A stretch of DNA of 64,000 nucleotides from Microvelia longipes (lineage: Eukaryota; Arthropoda; Insecta; Hemiptera; Veliidae), in the NCBI GenBank assembly GCA_018340805.1, contig JACMZG010001913.1:26912099-26976098 (forward strand), in the 5' to 3' direction. Of this stretch, positions 8,841 to 63,737 are shown one piece after another. A program made the position numbers and the translations under genes. A model generated the notes under the pieces. That model had not been told where the DNA came from. It was given only the letters and a program-made list of their open reading frames with translations, and did not search any database. Position 1 is the first letter of the stretch. Each line of letters opens with the position of its first letter.

Positions 8841-10431
8841 ATGAAGCCTTTAGTGCTACTTCTGGCATTTGGACTCTTAGCAAGTCATGTCGATGCCGGA
8901 GCAAGAAAACGTATAAAAATACAGTTTGGCGGAAAATTTGGAATTGGACCAGGAAGTGGAGGAAGCGGGGATGAGGAGGTAACAGGATCCGCAGGAGGTC
9001 TTAGTTCTGGGGCTTTTCCGTCTTTAGGCTCTCCCAGCCTAAGCTCGTTGGCACCCTCTATATCCGTAGGTGCAAACGCTAAAGCTGGGGTGAGACTATA
9101 CGATAGTAACGGTCGACCATACTGGCCTTCAGACCCTAATGGATCACCTTTTGGAAGACGGGGTCCTGACGGTACACCAAATTGGCCGCTGGACGATAGG
9201 GATAATCCTTTGCCTGTTTTAGGTAACGATGGTAAAAAGTATTTACCCTCCGCTTCAGACGGAAAGCCATACTGGCCAAAACATACTGACGGATACCGAG
9301 TAAGGCTGATAGGCGATAACGGTATGCCTTATTGGCCCACAGGTCCAGACAACAAACCTTTAGGCTTGATTAAAGAAGATGGAAAGCCTGTTCAACCTTT
9401 GAATTTAGATAACTCACCATATGCTCCTAGTGGACCAGACGGTGTACCGAATTGGCCCATTGGACCTGATGGTAGACCTTATTGGCCAAATGGTAAAAAT
9501 GGCGATCCTAAATGGAGTGTTAGTCCTGATGGCAAACCTCTTGGTCCTACTGAACCAGACGGTACTACCTATTGGCCTAAAGAACCTAGCGGAAAACCTT
9601 TTGGGCTCACATTAGATGACGGAAAACCATATTGGCCAATAGGCAAAGATGGGAAACCTAAACCAGTCACTGGACCAAACGGCAAGCTCTATTGGCCGAC
9701 TGGACCTGATGGATTAGCTTTTTGGCCACTTGACATAAACGGAAAACCTGTAGTACATTTCGACGCAAGCGGAAATCCATTTTGGCCGAGAGGAATAGAT
9801 GGTAATCCTTTGGGGCTAATAGGCGATGATGGTAAACCCTACGTGCCTACCACTCCCAGCGGTAATCCATACGGACCTGTCAATCAAAATGGTAAACTAG
9901 AATGGCCAATCGGGCCTGACGGAAGACCCTACATTCAAAGAAATCCGTCTCAGCCAAACACATACCAAAGTAATAACAAAGCCAACTTAAGAGTCGAAAT
10001 TATTGGATTTGATGGAAAGTCATACTGGCCAAAAGATTCGAATAATAAAAAATTCGGGCAGTTAGGACCTGATGGTAAACCATCTTGGCCTATTGGTTAT
10101 GACGGCAAACCATTAGGATTGCCTGGATCAGATGGAAAAACATACTGGCCTGCAGGACCCGACGGCAAACCATATTGGCCAGTAGATAACAATGGATATC
10201 CTCTTCGCTTTATTGGATCAGACGGTAGACCGTACTGGCCTTCAGGTCCAGATGGCAAACCTCTAGGATTGGTTGGACCTGACGGCCCGTACCAACCGAA
10301 AGACCAATCAGGTAAACCAGCTTCACCCACTGGACCAGACGGAAAACCTTACTGGCCTACAGGACCTGATGGAAGATTATATTGGCCTAATGGGCCAAAT
10401 GGAGGACCACACTGGACCAAAAGACCTGACG
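8841..10431 (+). CDS. Gene 1, first coding exon: signal peptide plus PYWP repeats
   Basis: This exon opens the giant secreted protein. The ATG at 8841 follows the acceptor TTTCAG (ends 8831) and begins a typical signal peptide, MKPLVLLLAFGLLASHVDA, with likely cleavage before GARKR. After a Gly/Ser-rich linker (about residues 25-90) the rest is a degenerate 10-12-residue repeat around GPDGKPYWPTG, rich in Gly, Pro, Asp, Lys and aromatic residues. The exon ends inside a GGT codon at a GTAAGT donor (10432), so the intron is phase 1. Intron retention would add 15 residues and stop at 10478. The composition suggests an extracellular, perhaps structural or adhesive, repetitive protein, but no function is known to me. 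The signal peptide and splicing are clear from the sequence; the role is not. Confidence 0.85.
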
Positions 10432-11121: not shown

Positions 11122-12204
11122 GTAAACCTTCTGGACCGGAAGATAGAGATGGAAAGCCATATTGGCCAAGAAAACCTGACGGAACACCATTTGGGAATGT
11201 AGACTATTATGGAAGACCATATTGGCCCATTGGTGTCGATGGAAGTCCCTTGGCTGTTACTGGACTAGACGGGAAACCATATCGTCCTACAGGACCAGAT
11301 GGTAAACCTTATTGGCCAATGGGTGCTGATGGTCAACCTGCATTACTCGTTGATGAAACTGGAACTCCTTACTGGCCACACGGAAACGACGAAAAACTAT
11401 TAGGCCTTTCAGGTCCCAATGGTGAACCGTACATACCTAAAGATAGAGATGGTAAAAATATTGTCCCCACAAATAGAGAAAACAAGCCATACTGGCCCAC
11501 TGGACCTGATGGCAAAACGTACTCCCCTACTAAGCTTCCAACTGATCCGACATGGCCATTAAGGCCTGACGGTTTCCAAGATTGGCCGAGGGATCCATTA
11601 GGTAAACCTCTACCAGCTGATGAAGCCGGTAAACCAAGCTGGCCTAAAGATAAAGATGGCAAACCTTTACCAGTAGGAGTAGATGGGAGACCAATCTGGC
11701 CTGTCGATGATGACGGAGACCAATTACCAGTAGGTCCTAAGGAGACACCTTTGAGCAAGATACTAGATGAACTTGAGAAAGCATTAATGCCAAAGGGACC
11801 TGATGGAGTACCACAATGGCCAACTGACCGTGATGGAAATCCGTTCCCGGAAGCACCAAATGGAAATCCTAGATGGCCTACAGACTCAGCTGGGAATCCC
11901 TTGCCTAAAGGACCTGACGGAAAACCATTTAATCCTAAAGGACCAAACGGTTTTCCAGTGCTAATAGGCCCTGAAGGAAAACCCCAATGGCCAACAGATA
12001 CCGATGGGAACCCACTTCCTCAAGGACCAGACGGCAAACCCAAATGGCCAACAGATGAAAACGGAGTACCGTTCCCAATGGGACCAGATGGAAAACCCTA
12101 TGATCCAAAAAGACTAGACGGGCCACCAAAACCTAAACCAGATGTGGAGGAGCAAAGACCAACTAGCCCAGAAAATATACATACGACTCCAAGTTTACCT
12201 AACG
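11122..12204 (+). CDS. Gene 1, second coding exon: PYWP/PQWP repeats
   Basis: Continues the repeat protein in frame: the split codon gives GKPSGP after joining. The first half keeps the DGKPYWP-type repeat. The second half (from about 11780) shifts to modules such as DGVPQWPTDRDGNP and EGKPQWPTDTDGNP, which are the same style as the A and B exons downstream. This exon therefore looks like the source or nearest relative of the amplified exons. It ends AAC G/GTAGAT at 12205, again phase 1. An insertion, KETPLSKILDELEKALMP (about 11738-11791), is the only stretch here that looks helical rather than repetitive. Confidence 0.85.
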
Positions 12205-12807
12205 GTAGATATTTTAATTATATATTTTTAATAATATGATATTGCCTTGAAACACAAAATAATACAAACTAAATGCTAATAAGCTTAAAAACTATTAGTA
12301 ATAGTCAAGACCAATTTATTAAACATGTACGAGGAAGATTTATTTGCCAAATTTAAGTTTTAGCTTCCTTGTAGTGTATAAATTATTGTTCATACTTCTT
12401 ATACTTAGATAAAAAATAATATTTCAATCTAAAATTATAATCCTTAAGAGTATTAACAACATCTTGTTCTTAACATTAAATTAACGGATGTCTCTATTAC
12501 AAAGTCGCTAAATAGAAAATTTGTTCTAACGAAATAGATGACAGCAAGAGGTATATTCAACCTAAAGAAGAGTTAGGCCATCATCAAATTAAATAATTTA
12601 GTTTCTTTCTACAAGTTTTAAATTGTTTTCTAGACACAATCAATCACAATCACTAAGCGATTCTAAATCTCATCGCTCAGTTTCTGTTCATTTATCCAGA
12701 ATCACCTGAAGGTACCATCTGAGTTCTTTTTTATTTTTTTCAATTTAATGCTACTTGTAATTATTTGTCAGTTTCTGTTCATTAATACTTCTTGTATTAT
12801 ATTATAG
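12205..12807 (+). other. Intron leading into the exon array, with relics
   Basis: It contains a degraded hammerhead-like/repeat copy on the minus strand at about 12548-12590 (GATGATGGCCT ... AGGTTGAAT). At about 12670-12720 there is a chimeric array edge: A-type upstream intron joined directly to the last bases of a B exon (CCAGAATCACCTGAAG) and its donor region, with no acceptor. This marks the left recombination edge of the array. Confidence 0.6.
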
Positions 12808-15800
12808 ATGACAAAACCAACAACCCACAATGGCCAAGAGATGCTGACGGAAACCCACTCCCACAGGGACCAGACGGAAGACCAAAATGGCCAACTGACA
12901 AGAATGGAAACCCATGGCCTGTAAGCCTAGATGGCAAACCTAAGAATCCAGATGTACCATTAGGTAAGCTTTTTCAAGTTGTTTACAATTTTTTGGCAAA
13001 TTTAATTCCACAAGTCATTGTTTTGACTCATTATTCATAAGGGGTAAATCTTAGTGAGAGTATAGAATACAGAACGTATTGACAAAAAAGGGTTCCAATT
13101 AACGACTTAAACCAAGTTTTGGGTATCAAAATTATGCATACTAAAATACTGATAAAATGTTAAATAAATAATTCTTGTATTATTGAATATTATAGGTGAC
13201 AAGACCAACCCACAATGGCCAAGGGATGCTGAAGGAAAACCATTCCCAATGGGACCAGAGGGAAGACCGAAATGGCCAACTGATAGCAATGGTAATCCAT
13301 GGCCTGTAGGCCCAGAAGGCAAACCCAAGGATCCAGAATCACCTAAAGGTACCATCTGAGTTCTTTTTTATTTTTTGCAATTTAATGCTACTTGTGATTA
13401 TTTTGTCAGATTCTTAAGGGTGAATCACATCGCTCAGTTTTCTGTTCATTAATACTTCTTGTATTATATTTATAGATGACAAAACCAACAACCCACAATG
13501 GCCAAGAGATGCTGACGGAAACCCACTCCCACAGGGACCAGACGGAAGACCAAAATGGCCAACTGACAAGAATGGAAACCCATGGCCTGTAAGCCCAGAT
13601 GGCAAACCTAAGAATCCAGATGTACCATTAGGTAAGCTTTTTCAAGTTGTTTACAATTTTTTGGCAAATTTAATTCCACAAGTCATTGTTTTGACTCATT
13701 ATTCATAAGGGGTAAATCTTAGTGAGAGTATAGAATACAGAACGTATGACAAAAAGGGTTCCAATTAACGACTTAAACCAAGTTTTGGGTATCAAAATTA
13801 TGCATACTAAAATACTGATAAAATGTTAAATAAATAATTCTTGTATTATTGAATATTATAGGTGACAAGACCAACCCACAATGGCCAAGGGATGCTGAAG
13901 GAAAACCATTCCCAATGGGACCAGACGGAAACCGAAATGGCCAACTGATAGCAATGGTAATCCATGGCCTGTAGGCCCAGAAGGCAAACCCAAGGATCCA
14001 GAATCACCTAAAGGTACCATCTGAGTTCTTTTTTATTTTTTGCAATTTAATGCTACTTGTGATTATTTGTCAGATTCTTAAGGGTGAATCACATCGCTCA
14101 GTTTCTGTTCATTAATACTTCTTGTATTATATTATAGATGACAAAACCAACAACCCACAATGGCCAAGAGATGCTGACGGAAACCCACTCCCACAGGGAC
14201 CAGACGGAAGACCAAAATGGCCAACTGACAAGAATGGAAACCCATGGCCTGTAAGCCCAGATGGCAAACCTAAGAATCCAGATGTACCATTAGGTAAGCT
14301 TTTTCAAGTTGTTTACAATTTTTTTGGCAAATTTAATTCCACAAGTCATTGTTTTGACTCATTATTCATAAGGGGTAAATCTTAGTGAGAGTATAGAATA
14401 CAGAACGTATGACAAAAAGGGTTCCAATTAACGACTTAAACCAAGTTTTGGGTATCAAAATTATGCATACTAAAATACTGATAAAATGTTAAATAAAAAA
14501 TTCTTGTATTATTGAATATTATAGGTGACAAGACCAACCCACAATGGCCAAGGGATGCTGAAGGAAAACCATTCCCAATGAGACCAGACGGAAGACCGAA
14601 ATGGCCAACTGATAGCAATGGTAATCCATGGCCTGTAGGCCCAGAAGGCAAACCCAAGGATCCAGAATCACCTAAAGGTACCATCTGAGTTCTTTTTTAT
14701 TTTTTGCAATTTAATGCTACTTGTGATTATTTGTCAGATTCTTAAGGGTGAATCACATCGCTCAGTTTCTGTTCATTAATACTTCTTGTATTATATTATA
14801 GATGACAAAACCAACAACCCACAATGGCCAAGAGATGCTGACGGAAACCCACTCCCACAGGGACCAGACGGAAGACCAAAATGGCCAACTGACAAGAATG
14901 GAAACCCATGGCCTGTAAGCCCAGATGGCAAACCTAAGAATCCAGATGTACCATTAGGTAAGCTTTTTCAAGTTGTTTACAATTTTTTGGCAAATTTAAT
15001 TCCACAAGTCATTGTTTTGACTCATTATTCATAAGGGGTAAATCTTAGTGAGAGTATAGAATACAAACGTATGACAAAAAGGGTTCCAATTAACGACTTT
15101 AAACCAAGTTTTGGGTATCAAAATTATGCATACTAAAATACTGATAAAATGTTAAATAAATAATTCTTGTATTATTGAATATTATAGGTGACAAGACCAA
15201 CCCACAATGGCCAAGGATGCTGAAGGAAAACCATTCCCAATGGGACCAGACGGAAGACCGAAATGGCCAACTGATAGCAATGGTAATCCATGGCCTGTAG
15301 GCCCAGAAGGCAAACCCAAGGATCCAGAATCACCTAAAGGTACCATCTGAGTTCTTTTTTATTTTTTGCAATTTAATGCTACTTGTGATTATTTGTCAGA
15401 TTCTTAAGGTGAATCACATCGCTCAGTTTCTGTTCATTAATACTTCTTGTATTATATTATAGATGACAAAACCAACAACCACAATGGCCAAGAGATGCTG
15501 ACGGAAACCCACTCCCACAGGGACCAGACGGAAGACCAAAATGGCCAACTGACAAGAATGGAAACCCATGGCCTGTAAGCCCAGATGGCAAACCTAAGAA
15601 TCCAGATGTACCATTAGGTAAGCTTTTTCAAGTTGTTTACAATTTTTTGGCAAATTTAATTCCACAAGTCATTGTTTTGACTCATTATTCATAAGGGGTA
15701 AATCTTAGTGAGAGTATAGAATACAGAACGTATGACAAAAAGGGTTCCAATTAACGACTTAAACCAAGTTTTGGGTATCAAAATTATGCATACTAAAATA

Positions 15801-18800
15801 CTGATAAAATGTTAAATAAATAATTCTTGTATTATTGAATATTATAGGTGACAAGACCAACCCACAATGGCCAAGGGATGCTGAAGGAAAACCATTCCCA
15901 ATGGGACCAGACGGAAGACCGAAATGGCCAACTGATAGCAATGGTAATCCATGGCCTGTAGCCCAGAAGGCAAACCCAAGGATCCAGAATCACCTAAAGG
16001 TACCATCTGAGTTCTTTTTTATTTTTTGCAATTTAATGCTACTTGTGATTATTTGTCAGATTCTTAAGGGTGAATCACATCGCTCAGTTTCTGTTCATTA
16101 ATACTTCTTGTATTATATTATAGATGACAAAACCAACAACCCACAATGGCCAAGAGATGCTGACGGAAACCCACTCCCACAGGGACCAGACGGAAGACCA
16201 AAATGGCCAACTGACAAGAATGGAAACCCATGGCCTGTAAGCCCAGATGGCAAAACCTAAGAATCCAGATGTACCATTAGGTAAGCTTTTTTCAAGTTGT
16301 TTACAATTTTTTGGCAAATTTAATTCCACAAGTCATTGTTTTGACTCATTATTCATAAGGGGTAAATATCTTAGTGAGAGTTATAGAATACAGAACGTAT
16401 GACAAAAAGGGTTCCAATAAACGACTTAAAACCAAGTTTTGGGTATCAAAATTATGCATACTAAAATACTGATAAAATGTTAAATAAATAATTCTTGTAT
16501 TATTGAATATTATAGGTGACAAGACCAACCCACAATGGCCAAGGGATGCTGAAGGAAAACCATTCCCAATGGGACCAGACGGAAGACCGAAATGGCCAAC
16601 TGATAGCAATGGTAATCCATGGCCTGTAGGCCCAGAAGGCAAACCCAAGGATCCAGAATCACCTAAAGGTACCATCTGAGTTCTTTTTTATTTTTTGCAA
16701 TTTAATGCTACTTGTGATTATTTGTCAGATTCTTAAGGGTGAATCACATCGCTCAGTTTCTGTTCATTAATACTTCTTGTATTATATATAGATGACAAAA
16801 CCAACAACCCACAATGGCCAAGAGATGCTGACGGAAACCCACTCCCACAGGGACCAGACGGAAGACCAAAATGGCCAACTGACAAGAATGGAAACCCATG
16901 GCCTGTAAGCCCAGATGGGCAAACCTAAGAATCCAGATGTACCATTAGGTAAGCTTTTTCAAGTTGTTTACAATTTTTTGGCAAATTTAATTCCACAAGT
17001 CATTGTTTTGACTCATTATTCACAAGGGGTAAATCTTAGTGAGAGTATAGAATACAGAACGTATGACAAAAAGGGTTCCAATAAACGACTTAAACCAAGT
17101 TTTGGGTATCAAAATTATGCATACTCAAATACTGATAAATGTTAAATAAATAATTCTTGTATTATTGAATATTATAGGTGACAAAGACCAACCCACAATG
17201 GCCAAGGGATGGTGAAGGAAAACCATTCCCAATGGGACCAGACGGAAGACCGAAATGGCCAACTGATAGCAATGGTAATCCATGGCCTGTAGGCCCAGAA
17301 GGCAAACCCAAGGATCCAGAATCACCTAAAGGTACCATCTGAGATCTTTTTTTTTTTGCAATTTGATGCTACTTGTGATTATTTGTCAGATTCTTAAGGG
17401 TGAATCACACGCTCAGTTTCTGTTCATTAATACTTCTTGTATTATATTATAGATGACAAAACCAACAACCCACAATGGCCAAGAGATGCTGACGGAAACC
17501 CACTCCCACAGGGACCAGACGGAAGACCAAAATGGCCAACTGACAAGAATGGAAACCCATGGCCTGTAAGCCCAGATGGCAAACCTAAGAATCCAGATGT
17601 ACCATTAGGTAAGCTTTTTCAAGTTTGTTTACAATTTTTTGGGCAAATTTAATTCCACAAGTCATTGTTTTGACTCATTATTCATAAGGGGTAAATCTTA
17701 GTGAGAGTATAGAATACAGAACGTATGACAAAAAGGGTTCCAATTAAACGACTTAAACCAAGTTTTGGGTATCAAAATTATGCATACTAAAAATACTGAT
17801 AAAATGTTAAATAAATAATTCTTGTATTATTGAATATTATAGGTGACAAGACCAACCCACAATGGCCAAGGGATGCTGAAGGAAAACCATTCCCAATGGG
17901 ACCAGACGGAAGACCGAAATGGCCAACTGATAGCAATGGTAATCCATGGCCTGTAGGCCCAGAAGGCAAACCCAAGGATCCAGAATCACCTAAAGGTCCC
18001 ATCTGAGCTCTTTTTTTTTTTTGCAATTTGATGCTACTTGTGATTATTTGTCAGATTCTTAAGGGTGAATCACATCGCTCAGTTTCTGTTCATTAATACT
18101 TCTTGTATTATATTATAGATGACAAAACCAACAACCCACAATGGCCAAGAGATGCTGACGGAAACCCACTCCCACGGACCAGACGGAAGACCAAAATGGC
18201 CAACTGACAAGAATGGAAACCCATGGCCTGTAAGCCCAGATGGCAAACCTAAGAATCCAGATGTACCATTAGGTAAGCTTTTTCAAGTTGTTTGCAATTT
18301 TTTGGCAAATTTAATTCCACAAGTCATTGTTTTGACTCATTATTCACAAGGGGTAAATCATAGTGAGAGTATAGAATACAGAACGTATGACAAAAAGGGT
18401 TCCAATAAACGACTTAAACCAAGTTTTGGGTATCAAAATTATGCATACTAAAATACTGATAAAATGTTGAATAAATAATTCTTGTATTATTGAATATTAT
18501 AGGTGACAAGACCAACCCACAATGGCCAAGGGATGCTGAAGGAAAACCATTCCCAATGGGACCAGACGGAAGACCGAAATGGCCAACTGATAGCAATGGT
18601 AATCCATGGCCTTAGGCCCAGAAGGCAACCCAAGGATCCAGAATCACCTAAAGGTACCATCTGAGTTCTTTTTATTTTTTGCAATTTAATTGCTACTTGT
18701 GATTATTTGTCAGATTCTTAAGGGTGAATCACATCGCTCAGTTTCTGTTCATTAATACTTCTTGTATTATATTATAGATGACAAAAACCAACAACCCACA

Positions 18801-19643
18801 ATGGCCAAGAGATGCTGACGGAAACCCACTCCCACAGGGACCAGACGGAAGACCAAAATGGCCAACTGACAAGAATGGAAACCCATGGCCTGTAAGCCCA
18901 GATGGCAAACCTAAGAATCCAGATGTACCATTAGGTAAGCTTTTTCAAGTTGTTTACAATTTTTTGGCAAATTTAATTCCCACAAGTCATTGTTTGACTC
19001 ATTATTCATAAGGGGTAAATCTTAGTGAGAGTATAGAATACAGAACGTATGACAAAAAGGGTTCCAATTAACGACTTAAACCCAAGTTTTGGGTATCAAA
19101 ATTATGCATACTAAAATACTGATAAAATGTTAAATAAATAATTCTTGTATTATTGAATATTATAGGTGACAAGACCAACCCACAATGGCCAAGGGATGCT
19201 GAAGGAAAACCATTCCAATGGACCAGACGGAAGACCGAAATGGCCAACTGATAGCAATGGTAATCCATGGCCTGTAGGCCCAGAAGGCAAACCCAAGGAT
19301 CCAGAATCACCTAAAGGTACCATCTGAGTTCTTTTTTTATTTTTTGCAATTTAATGCTACTTGTGATTATTTGTCAGATTCTTAAGGGTGAATCACATCG
19401 CTCAGTTTCTGTTTCATTAATACTTCTTGTATTATATTATAGATGACAAAACCAACAACCACAATGGCCAAGAGATGCTGACGGAAACCCACTCCACAGG
19501 GACCAGACGGAAGACCAAAATGGCCAACTGACAAGAAGAAACCCATGGCCTGTAAGCCCAGATGGCAAACCTAAGATCCAGATGTACCATTAGGTAAGCT
19601 TTTTCAAGTTGTTTACAATTTTTTGGCAAATTTAATTCACAAT
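12808..19643 (+). CDS. Gene 1 exon array, left part: 11 A and 10 B mini-exons
   Basis: Alternating mini-exons, each bounded by ATTATAG-type acceptors and GTAAGC (A) or GTACCA (B) donors, all phase 1. A exons (156 bp) encode DDKTNNPQWPRDADGNP...VPLG modules; B exons (153 bp) encode GDKTNPQWPRDAEGKP...ESPKG modules. A starts: 12808, 13476, 14138, 14802, 15463, 16124, 16792, 17453, 18119, 18778, 19443. B starts: 13196, 13862, 14525, 15188, 15848, 16516, 17178, 17843, 18503, 19166. Introns are about 232 bp (A to B) and 127 bp (B to A) and are as similar between copies as the exons, which points to recent tandem amplification. Full-length open copies include A at 12808, 13476, 14138, 14802 and 17453, and B at 13196, 14525, 16516 and 17843. 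The others carry 1-5-nt indels that would break the frame. Because the indels differ in every copy, they may be sequencing errors. Confidence 0.85.
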
Positions 19644-20643
19644 NNNNNNNNNNNNNNNNNNNNNNNNNNNNNNNNNNNNNNNNNNNNNNNNNNNNNNNNN
19701 NNNNNNNNNNNNNNNNNNNNNNNNNNNNNNNNNNNNNNNNNNNNNNNNNNNNNNNNNNNNNNNNNNNNNNNNNNNNNNNNNNNNNNNNNNNNNNNNNNNN
19801 NNNNNNNNNNNNNNNNNNNNNNNNNNNNNNNNNNNNNNNNNNNNNNNNNNNNNNNNNNNNNNNNNNNNNNNNNNNNNNNNNNNNNNNNNNNNNNNNNNNN
19901 NNNNNNNNNNNNNNNNNNNNNNNNNNNNNNNNNNNNNNNNNNNNNNNNNNNNNNNNNNNNNNNNNNNNNNNNNNNNNNNNNNNNNNNNNNNNNNNNNNNN
20001 NNNNNNNNNNNNNNNNNNNNNNNNNNNNNNNNNNNNNNNNNNNNNNNNNNNNNNNNNNNNNNNNNNNNNNNNNNNNNNNNNNNNNNNNNNNNNNNNNNNN
20101 NNNNNNNNNNNNNNNNNNNNNNNNNNNNNNNNNNNNNNNNNNNNNNNNNNNNNNNNNNNNNNNNNNNNNNNNNNNNNNNNNNNNNNNNNNNNNNNNNNNN
20201 NNNNNNNNNNNNNNNNNNNNNNNNNNNNNNNNNNNNNNNNNNNNNNNNNNNNNNNNNNNNNNNNNNNNNNNNNNNNNNNNNNNNNNNNNNNNNNNNNNNN
20301 NNNNNNNNNNNNNNNNNNNNNNNNNNNNNNNNNNNNNNNNNNNNNNNNNNNNNNNNNNNNNNNNNNNNNNNNNNNNNNNNNNNNNNNNNNNNNNNNNNNN
20401 NNNNNNNNNNNNNNNNNNNNNNNNNNNNNNNNNNNNNNNNNNNNNNNNNNNNNNNNNNNNNNNNNNNNNNNNNNNNNNNNNNNNNNNNNNNNNNNNNNNN
20501 NNNNNNNNNNNNNNNNNNNNNNNNNNNNNNNNNNNNNNNNNNNNNNNNNNNNNNNNNNNNNNNNNNNNNNNNNNNNNNNNNNNNNNNNNNNNNNNNNNNN
20601 NNNNNNNNNNNNNNNNNNNNNNNNNNNNNNNNNNNNNNNNNNN
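19644..20643. other. Assembly gap of exactly 1000 N
   Basis: The round length shows a placeholder, not a measured distance. It lies inside the exon array, so the number of missing A/B units is unknown. The open frame that spans it is meaningless. Confidence 0.99.
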
Positions 20644-22200
20644 TACTGAATAATGTTAAATAAATAATTCTTGTATTATTGAATATATAGGTGACAAGAC
20701 AACCTCACATGGCCAGGATGCTGAAGGAAAAACCAATTGCCCAATGGGAACCAGACGGAAGGACCGAAATGGCCAACTGATACAATGGTAACCAATGGCC
20801 TGTAGGCCCAGAAGGCAACCAAGGATCCAGAATCACCTAAAGGTAAACCAATCTGAAGTTCTTTTTTATTTTTGGCATTAATGCTACTTGTGAATTAATT
20901 TGTCAGATTTTACAGGGTGAATCACATCGCTTCAGTTTTCTGTTTCATTAAGTACTCTTGTATTATATTATAGATGACAAAACCAACAACCACAATGCCA
21001 AGAGATGCCTGACGGAACCCACTCCCACTAGGGACCAAAGACGGAAGACCAAAATGGCCAAACTTGACAAGAATGAAAAACCATGGCCTGTAAGCCCAGA
21101 TGGCAATACCTAAGAATCCAGAGTACCATTAGGTAAGCTTTTTCAAGTTGTTACAATTTTGTTTGGCAATTAATTCCACAAGTCATTGTTTTTGAACCCA
21201 TTATTCACAAGGGGTAAAATCTTAGTGAGAGTATATGTATATCTATGAAAATCTGTAATGACAAAAAGGGTTCTCATAAACGACTTAGAACCAAAGTTTT
21301 GGGTTTATCAAAATTGTCATAGCTAAATACTATTAAATGTTAATAAATATATTCTGCATTGAATATTATAGTTATCTTAATGTATCTATACCCACAAGCC
21401 AAGGGATGCTGAAGGAAAACCATTCCCATGGGACCAGACGAAGACCGAAATGGCCAACTGATAGCAATGGTAATCCATGCCTGTAGGCCCAGAAGGCAAA
21501 CCCAAGGCACTCCAGAATCACCTAAGGTATCATCTGAAGTTCTTTTTATTTTTTTGCATTTAATGCTACTTGTGATTATTGGTTCAATTCTTAGGGTTGA
21601 ATCACATCGCTCAGTTTTCTGTTCATTAATACTTCTTGTATTATATTATAGATGAAACAAAACCAACAACCCACAAGGCCAATGAGATCTGACGGCAACC
21701 CACTCCCACCAGGGAACCAGACGGAGACCAAAATTGCAACGGACAATGAAATGGAAACCCATGGCCTGTTAAGCCCAGATGGCAAACCTAAGAATCAGAT
21801 GTACCATTAGGTAAAGCTTTTTCAACGTTGTTTACAATTTTTGGCAAATTTAAATTCCACAAGTCATGTTTTGAACTCATTATTCACAAGGGGTAAATCT
21901 TAGTGAAGAGTATAGAATAACAGAACGTATGACAAAAAGGTTTCCAATTAAACGACTAAACCAAGTTTTGGGTATCAAAATTATGCATACTAAAATACTG
22001 ATAAATTTAAATAAATAATTCTTGTATTATTGAATATTATAGGTGACAAGACCAACCCACAATGGCCAAGGATGCTGAAGGAAAACCATTCCCAATGGGA
22101 CCAGACGGAAGACCGAAATGGCAACTGATAGCAATGGTAATCCATGGCCTGTAGGCCCAGAAGGCAAACCCAAGGATCCAGAATCACCTAAAGGTACCAT
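20644..22200 (+). CDS. Gene 1 exon array, low-quality segment after the gap
   Basis: Exon-like copies: B at 20691-20842, A at 20974-21132, B at about 21371-21526, A at 21652-21810 and B at 22043-22193. Indels occur every few tens of bases in exon and intron alike. At 21371-21400 the start of the B exon is replaced by unrelated sequence. The density falls off away from the gap. This gradient is what a poorly covered, unpolished contig end produces, so I treat these as probable real exons read badly rather than as true pseudo-exons. Confidence 0.55.
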
Positions 22201-25200
22201 CTGAGTTCTTTTTATTTTTGCAATTAATGCTACTTGTGATTATTTGTCAGATTCTTAAGGGTGAATCACATCGCTCAGTTTCTGTCATTAATACTTCTTG
22301 TATTATATTATAGATGACAAAACCAACAACCCACAATGGCAAGAGATGCTGACGGAAACCCACTCCCACAGGGACCAGACGGAAGACCAAAATGGCCAAC
22401 TGACAAGAATGGAAACCCATGGCCTGTAAGCCAGATGGCAAACCTAAGAATCCAGATGTACCATTAGGTAAGCTTTTTCAAGTTGTTTTACAATTTTTTG
22501 GCAAATTTAATTCCACAAGTCATTGTTTTGACTCATTAATTCATAAGGGGTAAATCTTAGTGAGAGTAATAGAATACAGAACGTATGACAAAAAGCGGTT
22601 CAATTAAACGACTTAAACCAAGTTTTGGGTATCAAAATTATGCATACTAAAATACTGATAAAATGTTAAATAAATAATTCTTGTATTATTGAATATTATA
22701 GGTGACAAGACCAAACCCACAATGGCCAAGGATGCTGAAGGAAAACCATTCCCAATGGGGACAAACGGAAGACCGAAATGGCCAACTGATAGCAATGGTA
22801 ATCCATGGCCTGTAGCCAGAAGGCAAACCCAAGGATCCAGAATCACCTAAAGGTACCATCTGAGTTCTTTTTATTTTTTGCAATTTAATGCTACTTGTGA
22901 TTATTTGTCAGATTCTTAAGGGTGAATCACATCGCTCAGTTTCTGTTCATTAATACTTCTTGTATTATATTATAGATGACAAAACCAACAACCCACAATG
23001 GCCAAGAGATGCTACGGAAACCCACTCCCACAGGACCAGACGGAAGACCAAAATGCCAACTGACAAGAATGGAAACCCATGGCCTGTAGCCCAGATGGCA
23101 AACCTAAAGAATCCAGATGTACCATTAGGTAAGCTTTTTCAAGTTGTTTACATTTTTTGGCAAATTTAATTCCACAAGTCATTGTTTTGACTCATTATTC
23201 ATAAGGGGTAAATCTTAGTGAGAGTATAGAATACAGAAACGTATGACAAAAAGGGTTCCAATTAACGACTTAAACCAAGTTTTGGTATCAAAATTATGCA
23301 TACTAAAATACTGATAAAATGTTAAATAAATAATTCTTGTATTATTGAATATTATAGGTGACAAGACCAACCCACAATGGCCAAGGGATGCTGAAGGAAA
23401 ACCATTTCCCAATGGGACCAGACGGAAGACCGAAATGGCCACTGATAGCAATGGTAATCCGTGGCCTGTAGGCCCAGAAGGCAAACCCAAGGATCCAGAA
23501 TCACCTAAAGGTACCATCTGAGTTCTTTTTTATTTTTGCAATTTAATGCTACTTGTGATTATTTGTCAGATTCTTAAGGGTGAATCACATCGCTCAGTTT
23601 CTGTTCATTAATACTTCTTGTATTATATTATAGATGACAAAACAACAACCCACAATGGCCAAGAGATGCTGACGGAAACCCACTCCCACAGGGACCAGAC
23701 GGAAGACAAAATGGCCAACTGACAAGAATGGAAACCCATGGCCTGTAATCCCAGATGGCAAACCTAAGAATCCAGATTACCATTAGGTAAGCTGTTTTTC
23801 AAGTTGTTTACAATTTTTGGCAAATTTAATTCCACAAGTCATTGTTTTGACTCATTATTCATAAAGGGTAAATCTTAGTGAGAGTATAGAATACAGAACG
23901 TATGAACAAAAAGGGTTCCAATTAACGACCTAAACCAAGTTTTTGGTATCAAAAATTATGCATACTAAAATACTGATAAAATGTTAAATAAATAATTCTT
24001 GTATTATTGAATATTATAGGTGACAAGACCAACCCAAATGGCCAAGGGATGCGAAGGAAAACCATTCCAATGGGAACCAGACGGAAGAAACGAAATGGCC
24101 AACTGATAGCAATGGTAATCCATGGCCTGTAGGCCCAGAAGGCAAACCCAAGGATCCAGAATCACCTAAAGGTACCATCTGAGTTCTTTTTTATTTTTTG
24201 CAATTTAATGCTACTTGTGATTATTTGTCAGATTCTTAAGGGTGAATCACATCGCTCAGTTTCTGTTCATTAATACTTCTTGTATTATATTATAGATGAC
24301 AAAACCAACAACCCACAATGGCCAGAGATGCTGACGGAAACCCACTCCCACAGGGACCAGACGGAAGACCAAAATGGCCAACTGACAAGAATGGAAACCC
24401 ATGGCCTGTAAGCCCAGATGGCAAACCTAAGAATCCAGATGTACCATTAGGTAAGCTTTTCAAGTTGTTTACAATTTTTTGGCAAATTTAATTCCACAAG
24501 TCATTGTTTGACTCATTATTCACAAGGGGTAAAATTTAGTGAGAGTATAGAATACAGAACGTATGACAAAAAGGGTCCAATTAACGACTTAAACCAGTTT
24601 TGGGTATCAAAATTATGCATACTAAAATACTGATAAAATGTTGAATAAATAATTCTTGTATTATTGAATATTATAGGTGACAAGACCAACCCACAATGGC
24701 CAAGGGATGCTGAAGGAAAACCATTCCCAATGGGACCAGACGGAAGACCGAAATGGCCAACTGATAGCAATGGTAATCCATGGCCTGTAGGCCCAGAAGG
24801 CAAACCCAAGGATCCAGAATCACCTAAAGGTACCATCTGAGATCTTTTTTTTTTTGCAATTTGATGCTACTTGTGATTATTTGTCAGATTCTTAAGGGTG
24901 AATCACATCGCTCAGTTTCTGTTCATTAATACTTCTTGTATTATATTATAGATGACAAAACAAACAACCCACAATGGCAAGAGATGCTGACGGAAACCAC
25001 TCCACAGGGACCAGACGGAAGACCAAAAATGGCCAACTGACAAGAATGGAAACCCATGCCTGTAAGCCCAGATGGCAAACCTAAGAATCCAGATGTACCA
25101 TTAGGTAAGCTTTTTCAAGTTGTTTACAATTTTTTGGCAAATTTAATTCCACAAGTCATTGTTTTGACTCATTATTCATAAGGGGTAAATCTTAGTGAGA

Positions 25201-28200
25201 GTATAGAATACAGAACGTATGACAAAAAGGGTTCCAATTAACGACTTAAACCAAGTTTGGGTATCAAAATTATGCATACTAAAATACTGATAAAATGTTA
25301 AATAAATAATTCTTGTATTATTGAATATTATAGGTGACAAGACCAACCCACAATGGCCAAGGGATGCTGAAGGAAAACCATTCCCAATGGGACCAGACGG
25401 AAGACCGAAATGGCCAACTGATAGCAATGGTAATCCATGGCCTGTAGGCCCAGAAGGAAACCCAAGGATCCAGAATCACCTAAAGGTACCATCTGAGTTC
25501 TTTTTTATTTTTTGCAATTTAATGCTACTTGTGATTATTTGTCAGATTCTAAGGGTGAATCACATCGCTCAGTTTCTGTTCATTAATACTTCTTGTATTA
25601 TATTATAGATGACAAAACCAACAACCCACAATGGCCAAGAGATGCTGACGGAAACCCACTCCCACAGGGACCAGACGAAGACCAAAATGGCCAACTGACA
25701 AGAATGGAAACCCATGGCCTGTAAGCCCAGATGGCAAACCTAGAATCCAGATGTACCATTAGGTAAGCTTTTTCAAGTTGTTTACAATTTTTTGGCAAAT
25801 TTAATTCCACAAGTCATTGTTTTGACTCATTATTCATAAGGGGTAAATCTTAGTGAGAGTATAGAATACAGAACGTATGACAAAAAGGGTTCCAATTAAC
25901 GACTTAAACCCAAGTTTTGGGTATCAAAATTATGCATACTAAAATACTGATAAAATGTTGAATAAATAATTCTTGTATTATTGAATATTATAGGTGACAA
26001 GACCAACCCACAATGGCCAAGGGATGCTGAAGGAAAACCATTCCCAATGGGACCAGACGGAAGACCGAAATGGGCCAACTGATAGCAATGGTAATCCATG
26101 GCCTGTAGGCCCAGAAGGCAAACCCAAGGATCCAGAATCACCTAAAGGTACCATCTGAGTTTTTTTTATTTTTTGCAATTTAATGCTACTTGTGATTATT
26201 GTCAGATTCTTAAGTGTGAATCACATCGCTCAGTTTCTGTTCATTAATACTTCTTGTATTATATTATAGATGACAAAACCAACAACCCACAATGGCCAAG
26301 AGATGCTGACGGAACCCACTCCACAGGGACCAGACGGAAGACCAAAATGGCCAACTGACAAGAATGGAAACCCATGGCCTGTAAGCCCAGATGGCAAAAC
26401 CTAAGAATCCAGATGTACCATTAGGTAAGCTCTTTCAAGTTGTTTACAATTTTTTGGCAAATTTAATTCCACAAGTCATTGTTTTGACTCATTATTCATA
26501 AGGGTAAATCTTAGTGAGAGTATAGAATACAGAACGTATGACAAAAAGGGTTCCAATTAACGACTTAAACCAAGTTTTGGGTATCAAAATATGCATACTA
26601 AAATACTGATAAAATGTTAAATAAATAATTCTTGTATTATTGAATATTATAGGTGACAAGACCAACCACAATGGCCAAGGGATGAAGGAAAACCATTCCC
26701 AATGGGACCAGACGGAAGACCGAAATGGCCAACTGATAGCAATGGTAATCCATGGCCTGTAGGCCCAGAAGGCAAACCCAAGGATCCAGAATCACCTAAA
26801 GGTACCATCTGAGTTCTTTTATTTTTTGCAATTTAATGCTACTTGTGATATTTGTCAGATTCTTAAGGGTGAATCACATCGCCTCAGTTTCTGTTCATTA
26901 ATACTTCTTGTATTATATATAGATGAAAAACCAACAACCCACAATGGCCAAGAGATGCTGACGGAAACCCACTCCCACAGGGACCAGACGGAAGACCAAA
27001 ATGGCCAACTGACAAGAATGGAACCCATGGCCTGTAAGCCCAGATGGCAAACCTAAGAATCCAGATGTACCATTAGGTAAGCTTTTCAAGTTGTTTACAA
27101 TTTTTTGGCAAATTTAATTCCACAAGTCATTGTTTTGACTCATTATTCATAAGGGGTAAATCTTAGTGAGAGTATAGAATACAGAACGTATGACAAAAAG
27201 GGTTCCAATTAACGACTTAAACCAATTTTGGGTATCAAAATTATGCATACTAAAATACTGATAAAATGTTAAATAATAATTCTTGTATTATTGAATATTA
27301 TAGGTGACAAGACCAACCCACAATGGCCAAGGGATGCTGAAGGAAAACCATTCCCAATGGGAACCAGACGGAAGACCGAAATGGCCAACTGATAGCAATG
27401 GTAATCCATGGCCTGTAGGCCCAGAAGGCAAACCCAAGGATCCAGAATCACCTAAAGGTACCATCTGAGTTCTTTTTTATTTTTGCAATTTAATGCTACT
27501 TGTGATTATTTGTCAGATCTTAAGGGTGAATCACATCGCTCAGTTTCTGTTCATTAATACTTTTGTATTTATATTATAGATGACAAAACCAACAACCCAC
27601 AATGGCCAAGAGATGCTGACGGAAAACCACTCCCACAGGGACCAGAACGGAAGACCAAAATGGCCAACTGACAAGAATGGAAACCCATGGCCTGTAAGCC
27701 CAGATGGCAAACCTAAGAATCCAGATGTACCATTAGGTAAGCTTTTTCAAGTTGTTTACAATTTTTTGGCAAATTTAAATTCCACAAGTCATTGTTTTGA
27801 CTCATTATTCATAAGGGGTAAATCTTAGTGAGAGTATAGAATACAGAAACGTATGACAAAAAGGGTTCCAATTAACGACTTAAACCAAGTTTTGGGTATC
27901 AAAATTATGCATACTAAAATACTGATAAAATGTTGAATAAATAATTCTTGTATTATTGAATATTATAGGTGACAAGACCAAACCACAATGGCCAAGGGAT
28001 GCTGAAGAAAACCATTCCCAATGGACCAGACGGAAGACCGAAATGGCCAACTGATAGCAATGGTAATCCATGGCCTGTAGGCCCAGAAGGCAAACCCAAG
28101 GATCCAGAATCCTAAAGGTACCATCTGAGTTCTTTTTATTTTTTTTGCAATTTAATGCTACTTGTGATTATTTGTCAGATTCTTAAGGTGAATCACATCG

Positions 28201-30371
28201 CTCAGTTTCTGTTCATTAATACTTCTTGTATTATATTATAGATGACAAAACCAACAACCCACAATGGCCAAGAGATGCTGACGGAAACCCACTCCCACAG
28301 GGACCAGACGGAAGACCAAAATGGCCAACTGACAAGAATGGAAACCCATGGCCTGTAAGCCCAGATGGCAAACCTAAGAATCCAGATGTACCATTAGGTA
28401 AGCTCTTTCAAGTTGTTTACAATTTTTTGGCAAATTAATTCCACAAGTCATTGTTTTGACTCATTATTCATAAGGGGTAAATCTTAGTGGAGTATAGAAT
28501 ACAGACGTATGACAAAAAGGTTCCAATTAACGACTTAAACCAAGTTTTGGTATCAAATTATGCATACTAAAATACTGATAAAATGTTAAATAAATAATTC
28601 TTTGTATTATTGAATATTATAGGTGACAAGACCAACCCACAATGGCCAAGGATGCTGAAGGAAAACCATTCCCAATGGGACCAGACGGAAGACCGAAATG
28701 GCCAACTGATAGCAATGGTAATCCATGCCTGTAGGCCCAGAAGGCAAACCAAGGATCCAGAATCACCTAAAGGTACCATCTGAGATCTTTTTTATTTTTT
28801 GCAATTTAATGCTACTTGTGATTATTTGTCAGATTCTTAAGGGTGAATCACATCGCTCAGTTTCTGTTCATTAATACTTCTTGTATTATATTATAGATGA
28901 CAAAACCAACAACCCACAATGGCCAAGAGATGCTGACGGAAACCCACTCCCACAGGGACCAGACGGAAGACCAAAATGGCCAACTGACAAGAATGGAAAC
29001 CCATGGCCTGTAAGCCCAGATGGCAAACCTAAGAATCCAGATGTACCATTAGGTAAGCTTTTTCAAGTTGTTTACAATTTTTTGGCAAATTTAATTCCAC
29101 AAGTCATTGTTTTGACTCATTATTCATAAGGGGTAAATCTTAGTGAGAGTATAGAATACAGAACGTATGACAAAAAGGGTTCCAATTAACGACTTAAACC
29201 AAGTTTTGGGTATCAAAATTATGCATACTAAAATACTGATAAAATGTTGAATAAATAATTCTTGTATTATTGAATATTATAGGTGACAAGACCAACCCAC
29301 AATGGCCAAGGGATGCTGAAGGAAAACCATTCCCAATGGGACCAGACGGAAGACCGAAATGGCCAACTGATAGCAATGGTAATCCATGGCCTGTAGGCCC
29401 AGAAGGCAAACCCAAGGATCCAGATCACCTAAAGGTACCATCTGAGTTCTTTTTTATTTTTGCAATTTAATGCTACTTGTGATTATTTGTCAGATTCTTA
29501 AGGGTGAATCACATCGCTCAGTTTCTGTTCATTAATACTTCTTGTATTATATTATAGATGACAAAACCCACAACCACAATGGCCAAGAGATGCTGACGGA
29601 AACCCACTCCCACAGGGACCAGACGGAAGACCAAAATGGCCAACTGACAAGAATGGAAACCCATGGCCTGTAAGCCCAGATGGCAAACCTAAGAATCCAG
29701 ATGTACCATTAGGTAAGCTTTTTCAAGTTGTTTACAATTTTTTGGCAAATTTAATTCCACAAGTCATTGTTTTGACTCATTATTCATAAGGGGTAAATCT
29801 TAGTGAGAGTATAGAATACAGAACGTATGACAAAAAGGGTTCCAATTAACGACTTAAACCAAGTTTTGGGTATCAAAATTATGCATACTAAATACTGATA
29901 AAATGTTGAATAAATAATTCTTGTATTATTGAATATTATAGGTGACAAGACCAACCCACAATGGCCAAGGGATGCTGAAGGAAAACCATTCCCAATGGGA
30001 CCAGACGGAAGACCGAAATGGCCAACTGATAGCAATGGTAATCCATGGCCTGTAGGCCAGAAGGCAAACCCAAGGATCCAGAATCACCTAAAGGTACCAT
30101 CTGAGTTCTTTTTTATTTTTTGCAATTTAATGCTACTTGTGATTATTTGTCAGATTCTTAAGGGTGAATCACATCGCTCAGTTTCTGTTCATTAATACTT
30201 CTTGTATTATATTATAGATGACAAAAAACAACCCACAATGGCCAAGAGATGCTGACGGAAACCCACTCCCACAGGGACCAGACGGAAGACCAAAATGGCC
30301 AACTGACAAGAATGGAAACCCATGGCCTGTAAGCCCAGATGGCAAACCTAAGAATCCAGATGTACCATTAG
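22201..30371 (+). CDS. Gene 1 exon array, right part: 13 A and 12 B mini-exons
   Basis: Continuation of the A/B alternation. A starts: 22314, 22976, 23634, 24296, 24952, 25609, 26270, 26923, 27580, 28242, 28897, 29558, 30218. B starts: 22702, 23358, 24020, 24677, 25334, 25994, 26653, 27304, 27969, 28623, 29283, 29942. Spacing is 651-665 bp. Full-length open copies include A at 28242 and 28897 and B at 24677; B at 23358 has the right length but two compensating indels. The remaining copies deviate by 1-7 nt. Splice sites are kept in every copy. All exons are symmetric phase 1-1, so skipping or adding any number preserves the frame, which would permit many protein lengths from alternative splicing or allelic copy number. 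Confidence 0.85.
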
Positions 30372-30600
30372 GTAAGCTTTTTCAAGTTGTTTACAATTTT
30401 TGGCAAATTTAATTCCACAAGTCATTGTTTTGACTCATTATTCATAAGGGGTAAATCTTAGTGAGAGTATAGAATACAGAACGTATGACAAAAAGGGTTC
30501 CAATTAACGACTTAAACCAAGTTTTGGGTATCAAAATTATGCATACTAAAATACTGATAAAATGTTAAATAAATAATTCTTGTATTATTGAATATTATAG

Positions 30601-31632
30601 GTGACAAGACCAACCCACAATGGCCAAGGGATGCTGAAGGAAAACCATTCCCAATGGGACCAGACGGAAGACCGAAATGGCCAACTGATAGCAATGGTAA
30701 TCCATGGCCTTTAAACGCTGAAGGAGAACCATTTAGCCCGGCTGGTTTAGGAATACCTCGGCCAACTGATTTAGGACATATTTTGCCAACTGGATTTAGA
30801 GAGCCTCATCCATCTCTTTTTGGACAATCCAAGCCAACTAGTATTGGACAACTTTCGCCTACTGGCTTTGGCCAACCCCAGCCAGCAGGCTTTGTACAAC
30901 CTCAGCGGACTGGATTAGGGCAACCTCAGCCAACTGAGTTTGGACTACCTCAGCCAACTGGATTAGGACAACTCCAGCCAATTAGCTTAGGGCAACCCCA
31001 GCCAATAGGTTTTGGTCAACCGCAGCCCATTGGTTTTAGGCAACCCCAGATAACGGGATTAGGACAACCCCAATCAAGTGGGTTTGGACAACCTCAGCTA
31101 ACTGGTTTAGGAGAACCTCAGCCAACAGGCTTGGGACAATCTCAGCCAACCGGATTAGGACAACCCCAATCAATTGGTTTACGTCAACCTCAGTCAAATG
31201 ATTTAGGTCAACTTCAGCCAACTGGTTCTAGACAAATTCAACCTGTTGGTTTTGGACAAAACTTGCCAAAAACTCCTAACCCATCAGTAGAAGGTTTCGG
31301 TGGAATTCAGCTAAGCATAAAAGGAAACATTCCTCCTGAACTTGCTGCTAAACTAAAAAAGGTCGGGCTTCTAGGTAATCTGCTTGGAGGGGTCAGTAAT
31401 TTAGTCGGAGGCGTTTTAGACACAGTTAATAAAGTTGGTGGTAATGTAGGTCTTGGCAATATTTTAACATCTGTTACTGATTTAGTAAAAACGCCTGTCT
31501 TCTCTTTACTTGGAACACCTCGAGCAGTGCATGGCGTTGTTTTAGACCAAGGAAATATTCTTAGGAGCTATGCTACCGGTACTGGAAATCCAAATCTAAT
31601 GAGAGGCGTTCAAACAATCCTCAACACAAAAG
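30601..31632 (+). CDS. Gene 1, terminal array exon fused to QPQPTG repeat
   Basis: Starts as a normal B exon (acceptor TATTATAG ends 30600) and keeps the B sequence up to the NPWP codons at about 30711. It then reads on into new sequence instead of the VGPEG end of B. Residues after the fusion form about 45 repeats-worth of GLGQPQPTG-like Gln/Pro/Gly sequence (to about 31270). A Gly/Leu/Val-rich, non-repetitive segment follows (about 31290-31632). The last 35 residues (VVLDQGNILRSY ... QTILNTKG) resemble the end of the large exon of gene 2. It ends AAA G/GTAATA, phase 1. It is fully open, with no indel, unlike most array copies. This anchors the right edge of the array in real coding sequence. 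Confidence 0.85.
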
Positions 31633-31923: not shown

Positions 31924-32037
31924 GCGCTGAAGGCCAATTAGATGGAACCAGCTTCACTAAAGAAGAATCTTGTGAGTGCCAGGGATCAGCTTGCAGCTGC
32001 TGTGTAAACTTTAATCTTAAAGTACTTAATAAAAAAG
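31924..32037 (+). CDS. Gene 1, C-terminal domain exon 1 (DUF4773-like, CxC motif)
   Basis: The acceptor TTACCACAG ends 31923 and the donor GTAAGG starts 32038; 114 bp, phase 1 on both sides. It encodes GAEGQLDGTSF then the cysteine block CECQGSACSCC followed by VNFNLKVLNKKG. The C-x-C-x5-C-x-CC pattern at the start of a domain of about 110 residues fits the DUF4773 family of secreted insect proteins as I remember it; a profile search would settle this. The function of that family is unknown. The matching exon of gene 2 lies at 41778-41897. Confidence 0.75.
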
Positions 32038-33068
32038 GTAAGGAATGAGTGCCGCGTTTATAGCTTTGTGAACAGATTGCAAGCACCTTTACCTTTAGTG
32101 CCCGTAATTATTTGTTGTCACTGTTTTTCAAGAAATTTTAGTTCTCGACTAAGTTTGACCCCCTGATTGGGGGAAAATTTTGAAATCATTCCGCCTGCAG
32201 TGGCGCAAAAAGCCGATGCCAAATGCCAAATTAAATTATATATAAATTAACACTTGCATAAGTTGTATATAAGAAATTTTTTCGACTCTTAAAGTGTAAA
32301 AACGAGTTTTCTATAAGAAAACAATGTATCTATTTTTAACGCATAAACATTGTACAAAAATACATACACAAATCAAAAAGAGAACGCCTATTAGGTGTGC
32401 ACTATTACATAACATGATCAATAAATCTTCTATGTATATTTCCTAAAAACCACCAATACACGAATCCCATTTCCTATGACCACTTCTGTGGGAGCAAACA
32501 GCTGACTTTCAAAGTCTGTATTGAATGTCCTGATAGTGTATAATGTCTTTCATCTTTGTTTTCATTTACTGAATCCCTAGGCGAAATTACAGCTGGTTTA
32601 GGTGGTTCTATTTATACATCTGTAGACTAATATAGGGTGATCCCGCATGTTCCATACCATCATCAACTTGAATTAGAGGTATGACAATCTAAATAGATTG
32701 TCAGGATTTTAAGCTATCCTTCTTATTTCAAAAGTAGTAATCTACAGCTCAATATAAATAATATTAGTCGAGATATAGAGTAAAAGATGACCAAAGGTTT
32801 TGCGAAGCCATATGGCATCTCTGGGCACTTAGGATAATTAGACGTTGTTTATGTTTGATGTTCCTATTTCAAAACTATCAGTTACTTGAGCCTCGAGGAC
32901 ATGATATATAAGGGATATTATTAAATATCCCTTTTATAATTTACTAAATTATTAAAATCGGAAGTAAATGCATTCATATAGTTGATGCATCTTAGTAATA
33001 TATTTATTTCTTTGTCATTATGGCTGCACGTAAATACGCATAGTGTAACATAGAATATTATTTTGCAG
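32038..33068 (+). other. Intron of gene 1
   Basis: Phase-1 intron with no other gene visible. It is moderately AT-rich. Confidence 0.75.
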
Positions 33069-33161
33069 TATGTTTGGAGTCGTCTATGCAATCAGGTAAA
33101 CCCGGACTTCAGTTTACTCTTGCTGTAGACAATCAGAGGCAGCCTCTTGTTTCTGCTGATG
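33069..33161 (+). CDS. Gene 1, C-terminal domain exon 2
   Basis: The acceptor TTTTGCAG ends 33068 and the donor GTAAGT starts 33162; 93 bp, phase 1. It begins with VCLESSMQSGKPGLQFTL and ends PLVSADG. Gene 2 has an exon of exactly the same length and start (VCLE) at 40489-40581, which supports both calls. Confidence 0.75.
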
Positions 33162-33905
33162 GTAAGTATTCATTACTTCTATTAGGTTCCACAACAACTG
33201 TCTTACTTGCTTACTAACATAAGTAACTCTACTATTGTTACTTATAAATTTTGCTATAATCGCTTTTGCTATGAGTCAATGTGATTTACAGAGTACTATC
33301 TAGTCAATCTTAGATTGGTTTTGATAATTGCTAAGTTGCATCTATTAGTTTCATTCTTTTCTTGAACATTGGTTATCTATCTTTATTTTTTCTCTTTACT
33401 TATGAACTCACATATTGTGAGCTTCTTCTGAATTTTCAGCCCTCTTGTAATAATAGTAGATATGACTGACTCACTGAATTATATATATGTTTGATAGAGA
33501 CAATCATAAATTAAGTTTGACAAAGAAAATCATAAAATAATATTGAAAAGGTTACTCATAAAATATAATTTACAAAGATTATTATTTATGCAACACTTGC
33601 TCTATTTTAGCCTGATGTGGTCTTATAAATGCACTTACTTGTACATTGATATTTACCTTCTGTATGGGACTTGTTGTGTCTTGAATACATTTATTGCATG
33701 TGTTTTCTAATACTACATCCTCCAGAACCTCTGGACGTAGCTCACACAGTGAGCTAATTTTCTGGTACGTTTCTTTGATTTATAATATTGTTTAGTTTTT
33801 CGAGAAAGAACTAAACAATTCTATGTTTTCGATTTAAAATACATGTAGACTTGTATTTTAAATAATAAGTGAACTGGGGAAAAAATTAAAAAAGTGTATT
33901 TTAAG

Positions 33906-38737: not shown

Positions 38738-38787
38738 GTATTTTAAGGTTACTTTGATTATTAAAAATAAAATTATTTGTATTATAG

Positions 38788-48972: not shown

Positions 48973-49118
48973 GAGATCATAATCAAAGAAGGTTATCCGA
49001 GGTTATCTGACTAACACGCATTTTTTAATATCTCTCTTATTTTCGTATAAATTTGGTTTTTTGCGAGCTTTTTTTAACTTCAATTTTATTGCTAAACTTT
49101 ATTTATTAGTTTCTTACA

Positions 49119-63711: not shown

Positions 63712-63737
63712 AAGAAGAAGGTCATCGGCGTAGGCAG

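Follow-up and report, generated by a model that had tools for sequence, protein, structure and literature searches.

Genes in which two types of exon and two types of homogenized intron alternate as a core unit are described for the spider genus Argiope, namely the dragline silk genes MaSp2.1a and MaSp2.2a (PMC9779670; this paper and the others named below are cited here from parts of their text). Within those parts, its authors state that they were aware of no further eukaryotic gene in which two homogenized introns alternate, and they propose that the repeated introns aid the homogenization of the coding repeats of silk genes. The flagelliform silk gene Flag of Nephila (PMC1885213) likewise resembles the locus treated here in its repetitive exon-intron layout and its nearly identical successive introns, which are taken there as a sign of intragenic recombination. 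In the micro-exon genes of schistosomes, exons of 3-81 bp are separated by introns of up to 5 kb, and the products are secreted (PMC10526429). The present locus lies in a stretch of 64,000 nucleotides (the window) inside a contig of 42.9 Mb (JACMZG010001913.1) of the insect Microvelia longipes (Hemiptera, Veliidae). It comprises a predicted gene with a long array of two alternating exon types and two alternating intron types, a layout that in the literature searched is otherwise met only in some orb-spider silk genes. Judged from its sequence, the architecture of this gene is genuine and remarkable; spider silk offers a good parallel to it, the predicted protein being unrelated, and within the array the assembly cannot be relied on.

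Between positions 12,808 and 30,601, 26 starts of an A exon and 26 starts of a B exon follow each other in strict alternation (located by blastn and inspection; the two starts adjoining an assembly gap, at 21,372 and 21,652, were placed by eye). According to the majority consensus, the A exon is 156 bp, the subsequent intron a 230 bp, the B exon 153 bp and intron b 124 bp long, which gives a repeat unit of 663 bp with two exons and two introns. AG directly precedes all 52 exon starts, and the introns seen in full are GT–AG introns in 50 of 50 cases; the donor pattern starting with GT was matched in 49 of the 50 segments, and the remaining one (B at 17,843) reads GTCCCA, likewise with GT. All exon junctions of the consensus are in phase 1, such that whole exons can be gained, lost or skipped without leaving the frame. 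The last (26th) B forms the 5' part of the terminal exon, where it matches the consensus B over 36 codons, and the sequence is unique after about position 30,710. A model that had read the letters of this stretch without database searches (hereafter the original prediction) had proposed alternating 156-bp and 153-bp exons with short introns of their own, and this anatomy is borne out. Furthermore, introns a and b are homologous to each other at both ends: none of 2,000 dinucleotide shuffles reached the observed score for the whole introns, for their 5' parts or for their 3' parts, the last test being narrow (score 31 vs. 30 in the best shuffle).

The six exons outside the array are open, total 4,107 bp and join in phase 1 in one frame around the array to encode 1,368 residues, as had been supposed when a single gene was proposed. 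With the array included, the predicted phase-1 gene spans positions 8,841–38,981 of the forward strand. From 5' to 3', it consists of a decapeptide block, the array, a block of GLGQPQPT-type octapeptides (24-bp repeats at the DNA level) and a cysteine domain. The spacing between DG.P-like motifs is exactly 10 residues in 36 of 55 cases in exons 1 and 2, where this is the commonest value; in the array, spacings of 9 and 10 residues are commonest. Neither continuous Gly-X-Y nor a Pfam collagen hit is found. The A and B peptides together contain 25% proline, 13% aspartate, 12% glycine and 6% tryptophan (an example of an array peptide is WPTDSNGNPWPVGPEGK), and cysteine is absent from them as well as from exons 1 and 2. 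Concerning the 3' end, the conserved cysteine domain that had been noticed there is DUF4773 (PF15998), which scores 36.1 bits against a Pfam cut-off of 27 over residues 16-125 of the joined translation of the last three exons. If all array exons seen were in frame, the protein would reach about 3,995 residues; the earlier figure of about 4,000 is therefore met in number, but it requires that the indels treated below be false, and there is a break in the assembly within the array. The predicted product is a secreted structural protein of giant size with high contents of proline, glycine and tryptophan, and as a prediction the secreted PxWP-repeat protein of the earlier reading stands.

Within each type, the copies are nearly identical. 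When gaps are ignored, the mean pairwise identity amounts to 99.7% for exon A and 99.3% for intron a (n = 23 each), and to 99.6% for exon B and 99.5% for intron b (n = 22 each), in a set from which the gap-edge segments and the B segment at 17,843 were excluded. When gaps are counted, the identities of the two introns are 97.3% and 97.2% away from the gap edge, and 95.9% for each when it is included. The introns have been homogenized along with the exons, in agreement with the claim that the unit spread recently as genomic DNA. The further claim that introns are as alike as exons holds in so far as both are near-identical, but the introns are slightly less alike: 31 substitutions were counted in 7,962 bp of intron and 12 in 6,954 bp of exon (Fisher p = 0.014; 45 of 50 segments, without the five whose starts fall between 19,000 and 22,040), a modest difference, the statistic for which ignores the shared ancestry of the units. 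At six sites, substitutions recur in two to six carriers each (e.g., A>G at position 353 of the A segment, situated in intron a, in six units), and the subtypes defined in this way are scattered along the array. Since the recurring substitutions split the units into subtypes, the copies are not one read repeated.

The 3' end of exon 2 holds diverged relatives of the unit, with which the synonymous (dS) and nonsynonymous (dN) divergence of the array exons was compared (44 codons in each case). Relative to the nearest exon-2 copy, dS is 1.51 and dN 0.20 for A (ratio 0.13), and dS is 1.24 and dN 0.27 for B (ratio 0.22). A second exon-2 copy gives dS 2.01 and dN 0.33 for A (ratio 0.16), and dS 1.25 and dN 0.37 for B (ratio 0.30). 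Because of the ratios of 0.13–0.22 to the nearest copy, the unit appears to have evolved largely as protein-coding sequence.

Table 1. Features of the predicted gene and its surroundings (positions in the window).
Feature	Position	Strand	Remarks
Displaced partial unit	3,786–4,168	+	Intron b end, one A exon, intron a start; outside the predicted gene, about 5 kb upstream
Predicted coding exon 1	8,841–10,431	+	Open frame; donor GTAAGT; hydrophobic N-terminus (by eye), then DGKPYWPxGP-like decapeptides
Predicted coding exon 2	11,122–12,204	+	Open frame, in frame with exon 1; decapeptides, 3' end = diverged relatives of the array unit
Eroded left edge of array	12,666–12,807	+	Scrambled intron b pieces and B-exon tail; blastn pieces of intron b: 75-105, 1-66, 91-127
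Array	12,808–30,600	+	A and B exons in alternation, each followed by its own intron (a or b); 26 A and 25 full-length B; broken by gap
First A exon (example)	12,808–12,963	+	156 bp
First intron a (example)	12,964–13,195	+	
First B exon (example)	13,196–13,348	+	153 bp
First intron b (example)	13,349–13,475	+	
Assembly gap inside array	19,644–20,643		Exactly 1,000 N
Four error-rich array segments beside gap	20,691–22,042	+	About 92 indels per kb
Terminal B exon	30,601–31,632	+	1,032 bp; B start, continued by GLGQPQPT octapeptide region and unique region
DUF4773 exon 1	31,924–32,037	+	Open frame; Pfam; CECQGSACSCC
DUF4773 exon 2	33,069–33,161	+	Open frame; Pfam
175-bp satellite in last intron	33,902–38,738		Two blocks in opposite orientation
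DUF4773 exon 3	38,788–38,981	+	Open frame; Pfam; includes stop codon

Between DUF4773 exons 1 and 2, at 32,581-32,630, a phase-1 stretch preceded by AG, GEITAGLGGSIYTSVD, ends in a stop codon and might be an alternative last exon.

Genome-wide searches covered 664.6 Mb in 1,470 contigs, and those with the unit, both as peptide and as DNA, give lower bounds. In keeping with an insect source, the genome has at least 43 matches to PF02949, the odorant receptor family, which is confined to insects. The 65 matches listed for the A and B peptide are all situated at this locus, including the displaced copy and exons 1 and 2, and a 701-bp DNA query with both introns matched at least 13 places, again all at this locus; among the matches listed, no second array elsewhere in the genome was found. 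Repeated introns copied into many genes are known as introners. Such a spread of the intron alone was considered and rejected, since all 13 DNA matches listed lie at this locus and exon sequence is always present in the unit. The displaced A exon (Table 1) has an open frame with four nonsynonymous and two synonymous changes. The only link between this copy and the satellite is one match of 32 bp at 4,243-4,274 (E 1e-4), which is too little to support a mobile element as its carrier.

From these observations we infer, with good though not full confidence, that the 26 assembled exon pairs were grown and kept uniform by unequal crossing-over and gene conversion, and that the gene encodes a giant secreted structural protein of silk-, glue- or cuticle-like nature. 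The source of A and B would have been an exon with kinship to the end of exon 2, duplicated along with its intron, a joint duplication being suggested by the relatedness of introns a and b at both ends. After A and B had diverged, the A-B pair would have been amplified as the genomic unit of 663 bp, and the units would have been homogenized by the two kinds of exchange, for which the introns might supply long matched tracts without damage to the coding sequence. The eroded or abrupt edges of the array fit unequal exchange, and the scattered subtypes of the unit fit repeated exchange.

Several observations weigh against this reading. The gene, its splicing and its secretion are predictions from genomic sequence; the hydrophobic stretch at 8,841 looks like a signal peptide as judged by eye only, the gene is tied to no gland that would speak for a silk, glue or cuticle role, and no homologue fixing the role of the protein was found. 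Furthermore, dS to the exon-2 copies is near saturation, the constraint seen in these comparisons may largely have affected the exon-2 copies or may predate the amplification, and the A and B exons, themselves homologous, differ by dS 0.29 and dN 0.15, a ratio of about 0.50 that indicates mild constraint only. Concerning the assembly, the original prediction, although correct about the array itself, overlooked the gap of 1,000 N and the indels in the array exons: of the 50 array exons seen in full, 12 lack indels and 38 carry an indel, and the net length change is divisible by 3 in 19 of 50. In the assembly as it stands, the majority of copies have lost the frame, and the symmetric phases that had been claimed hold for the consensus junctions. 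The gap and its noisy edges leave room for partial mis-assembly of the array. Finally, exon 2 and the terminal exon are compatible in phase, and transcripts could bypass the array.

Both the frequent indels and the in-phase junction of exon 2 with the terminal exon would also be found if the array were a decaying or non-coding intragenic satellite of dead exon copies, skipped in the working protein. We regard this as improbable. The exons are no freer of indels than the introns (10.1 vs. 11.3 per kb in the 45 segments; Fisher p = 0.47), and the displaced copy is relic-like, with its four nonsynonymous and two synonymous changes and its frame nevertheless open. However, away from the gap indels exceed substitutions 160 to 43 (totals of the same 45 segments), which is unlike ordinary decay, and they track the gap: from left to right, the array shows 3.9 and 9.2 indels per kb before the gap and 91.7, 18.2, 14.1 and 7.6 per kb after it (49 segments are covered, all but B at 19,166). 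The unrelated satellite of the last intron consists of about 6.4 copies in one direction and about 21 in the other, which meet head to head near 35,020, and it resembles the array in its rate of deletions, with hardly any substitutions (12.4 deletions, 1.6 insertions and 0.27 substitutions per kb in the larger block). At the rate of the array exons, about 41 indels would be expected in the 4,107 bp of coding sequence outside the array, and the frames are fully open instead. Because the indels are equally frequent in exons and introns, peak at the gap, recur in an unrelated satellite and are absent from the exons outside the array, they look false, and we think that they are errors of assembly, as in long-read repeats beyond the reach of polishing. 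A parallel case is given by the silk genes of Argiope, for which frameshifts in nanopore contigs were corrected with short reads (PMC9779670). Equally, dead copies should hardly have fewer substitutions in exons than in introns, an open frame in all 12 of the 12 indel-free exons, and GT and AG kept in 50 introns.

A further explanation would treat the exons as alternatives, mutually exclusive or strongly skipped, which would result in many short isoforms and no giant protein. Phase 1 at all consensus junctions would indeed keep any skipping in frame, but a constitutive repeat requires it just as much, and the choice among near-identical copies of the same type would yield almost no diversity; we consider this explanation unlikely. 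The alternative exons of Dscam, by comparison, are reportedly diverged, unlike the copies of the array. Even less credit is due to the view that the array is mostly an artefact, with few real units, multiplied where long reads were wrongly joined near the gap, as the gap and the error-rich segments adjoining it might suggest, since recurring substitutions are common to non-neighbouring units, the units at the two ends of the array are distinct, unique exons adjoin it on either side, clean units stand on both flanks, and an assembly breaks at an array that it cannot bridge, which would point to more units than are seen rather than fewer. The run of 1,000 N is taken as a placeholder whose length need not be the true size of the gap; as it lies inside the array, the copy number is known only as assembled (26).

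Under the preferred reading, that of a giant secreted protein, the company of its C-terminal domain is of interest. DUF4773 occurs elsewhere in the genome in at least seven exon matches, at loci without any of the 65 listed unit matches; the search overlooks split domains, and the domain of the present gene, divided among three exons, is not among the matches listed. Five of these matches (L009-L015) lie on one contig (C542), and two of them (L011 and L012), about 3 kb apart, may be one gene. DUF4773 proteins have received little attention. A DUF4773 transcript is among the most abundant up-regulated transcripts of the secreting pleuropodia of locusts (PMC6966819), and, according to the parts of the sources cited, a DUF4773 protein appears in a list of skin-mucus proteins of an octopus and a DUF4773 gene in a table of cluster genes of oyster haemocytes. 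The occurrences in pleuropodia and skin mucus fit a secreted DUF4773 product, and the present protein resembles other DUF4773 proteins in its domain above the Pfam cut-off and in its secreted look.

Searches for homologues of the 1,368-residue protein outside the array (none at E 0.001 among 7,992 candidates scored) and of its 244-residue C-terminal part (none at E 0.01 among 612 candidates) are weak negatives, their coverage of eukaryotes being uncertain. At E 1, the DUF4773 end (132 residues) had no match among solved structures, and repeat peptides such as DGKPYWP were not found in the literature searched. Weak Pfam hits to NigD_N, DUF4988, DUF1720, DUF7159 and Sec10_N lie below their cut-offs and were rejected.

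Downstream of the predicted gene, an open frame on the reverse strand (42,222-43,634; about 430 residues scanned) is rich in asparagine and glutamine and has a hydrophobic start, with no Pfam match over the cut-off. By eye, Copia-like fragments are recognized on the reverse strand at 46,072–49,002 and 53,696–54,454; a long interspersed nuclear element (LINE) on the forward strand (49,110–52,952) is situated between them, apparently as a nested insertion. An R1-like LINE, likewise recognized by eye, is represented on the reverse strand at 62,119-63,750 by a part that includes reverse transcriptase and RNase H.

In comparison with known systems, the term "undescribed system" used in the original prediction is too strong for the architecture, as iterated and homogenized units of exon and intron, including alternating ones, are on record for spider silk genes (PMC9779670, PMC1885213); the protein itself had no match in the above searches. 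A literature search on homogenized or alternating introns and on tandem or repeated exons found nothing closer than spider silk; besides the silk papers, it led to work on Micromonas algae, in one case on intron invasion, and to papers that look unrelated. Concerning the protein, Pfam includes spidroin models. A Pfam scan of exons 1 and 2, the terminal exon and the C-terminus gave no N- or C-terminal spidroin domain among its hits at E 0.1, and neither poly-Ala nor GPGXX/GGX repeats are present, the repeats being DGKPYWPxGP-like. The likeness to spider silk is one of layout and not of descent, because no spidroin domain is found in the exons tested. Mussel foot protein 1 is also a secreted structural protein of decapeptide repeats, but its decapeptide sequences differ from those found here.

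The micro-exon genes of schistosomes have symmetric exons. As far as the cited parts of their description go, they share with the present gene the many small exons and the secreted products, whereas the exons found here (156 and 153 bp) lie outside the range of 3-81 bp, the introns are shorter and the exon copies are near-identical. Nephila Flag is said to possess a single intron type; it differs further in its ensemble repeats of about 440 residues and in being a spidroin, according to the portion of its description used here.

The gene is most similar to Argiope MaSp2. In both, as judged from the cited parts of the Argiope account, the core unit is an alternation of two types of exon and two of intron, and the introns are homogenized within the gene, with an intron identity of 97.6% (mean over genes) in Argiope and the above 97.3% and 97.2% here (gaps counted, outside the gap edge), and both encode a large repeat protein with unique ends. 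Despite this similarity, there are differences between them: the Argiope product is a spidroin with poly-Ala and GPGXX repeats, whereas the present one has a DUF4773 end and decapeptide PxWP repeats, and introns a and b are detectable relatives here, a relation that is not met in those parts of the Argiope account. An unrelated gene with an Argiope-like layout makes the idea of homogenization through introns testable outside spiders and would offer a lead to an unstudied secreted material; it also cautions that genes of this kind can be garbled in assemblies from long reads, such that annotation would miss them. The chances seem evenly balanced that the alternating layout with two homogenized introns had a second independent origin here, in an insect and in a protein that is not a spidroin, that it constitutes a general animal route to giant, uniform and length-variable secreted materials, and that the DUF4773/PxWP protein is a new material of this kind, beside the silks of spiders, differing in length between individuals.

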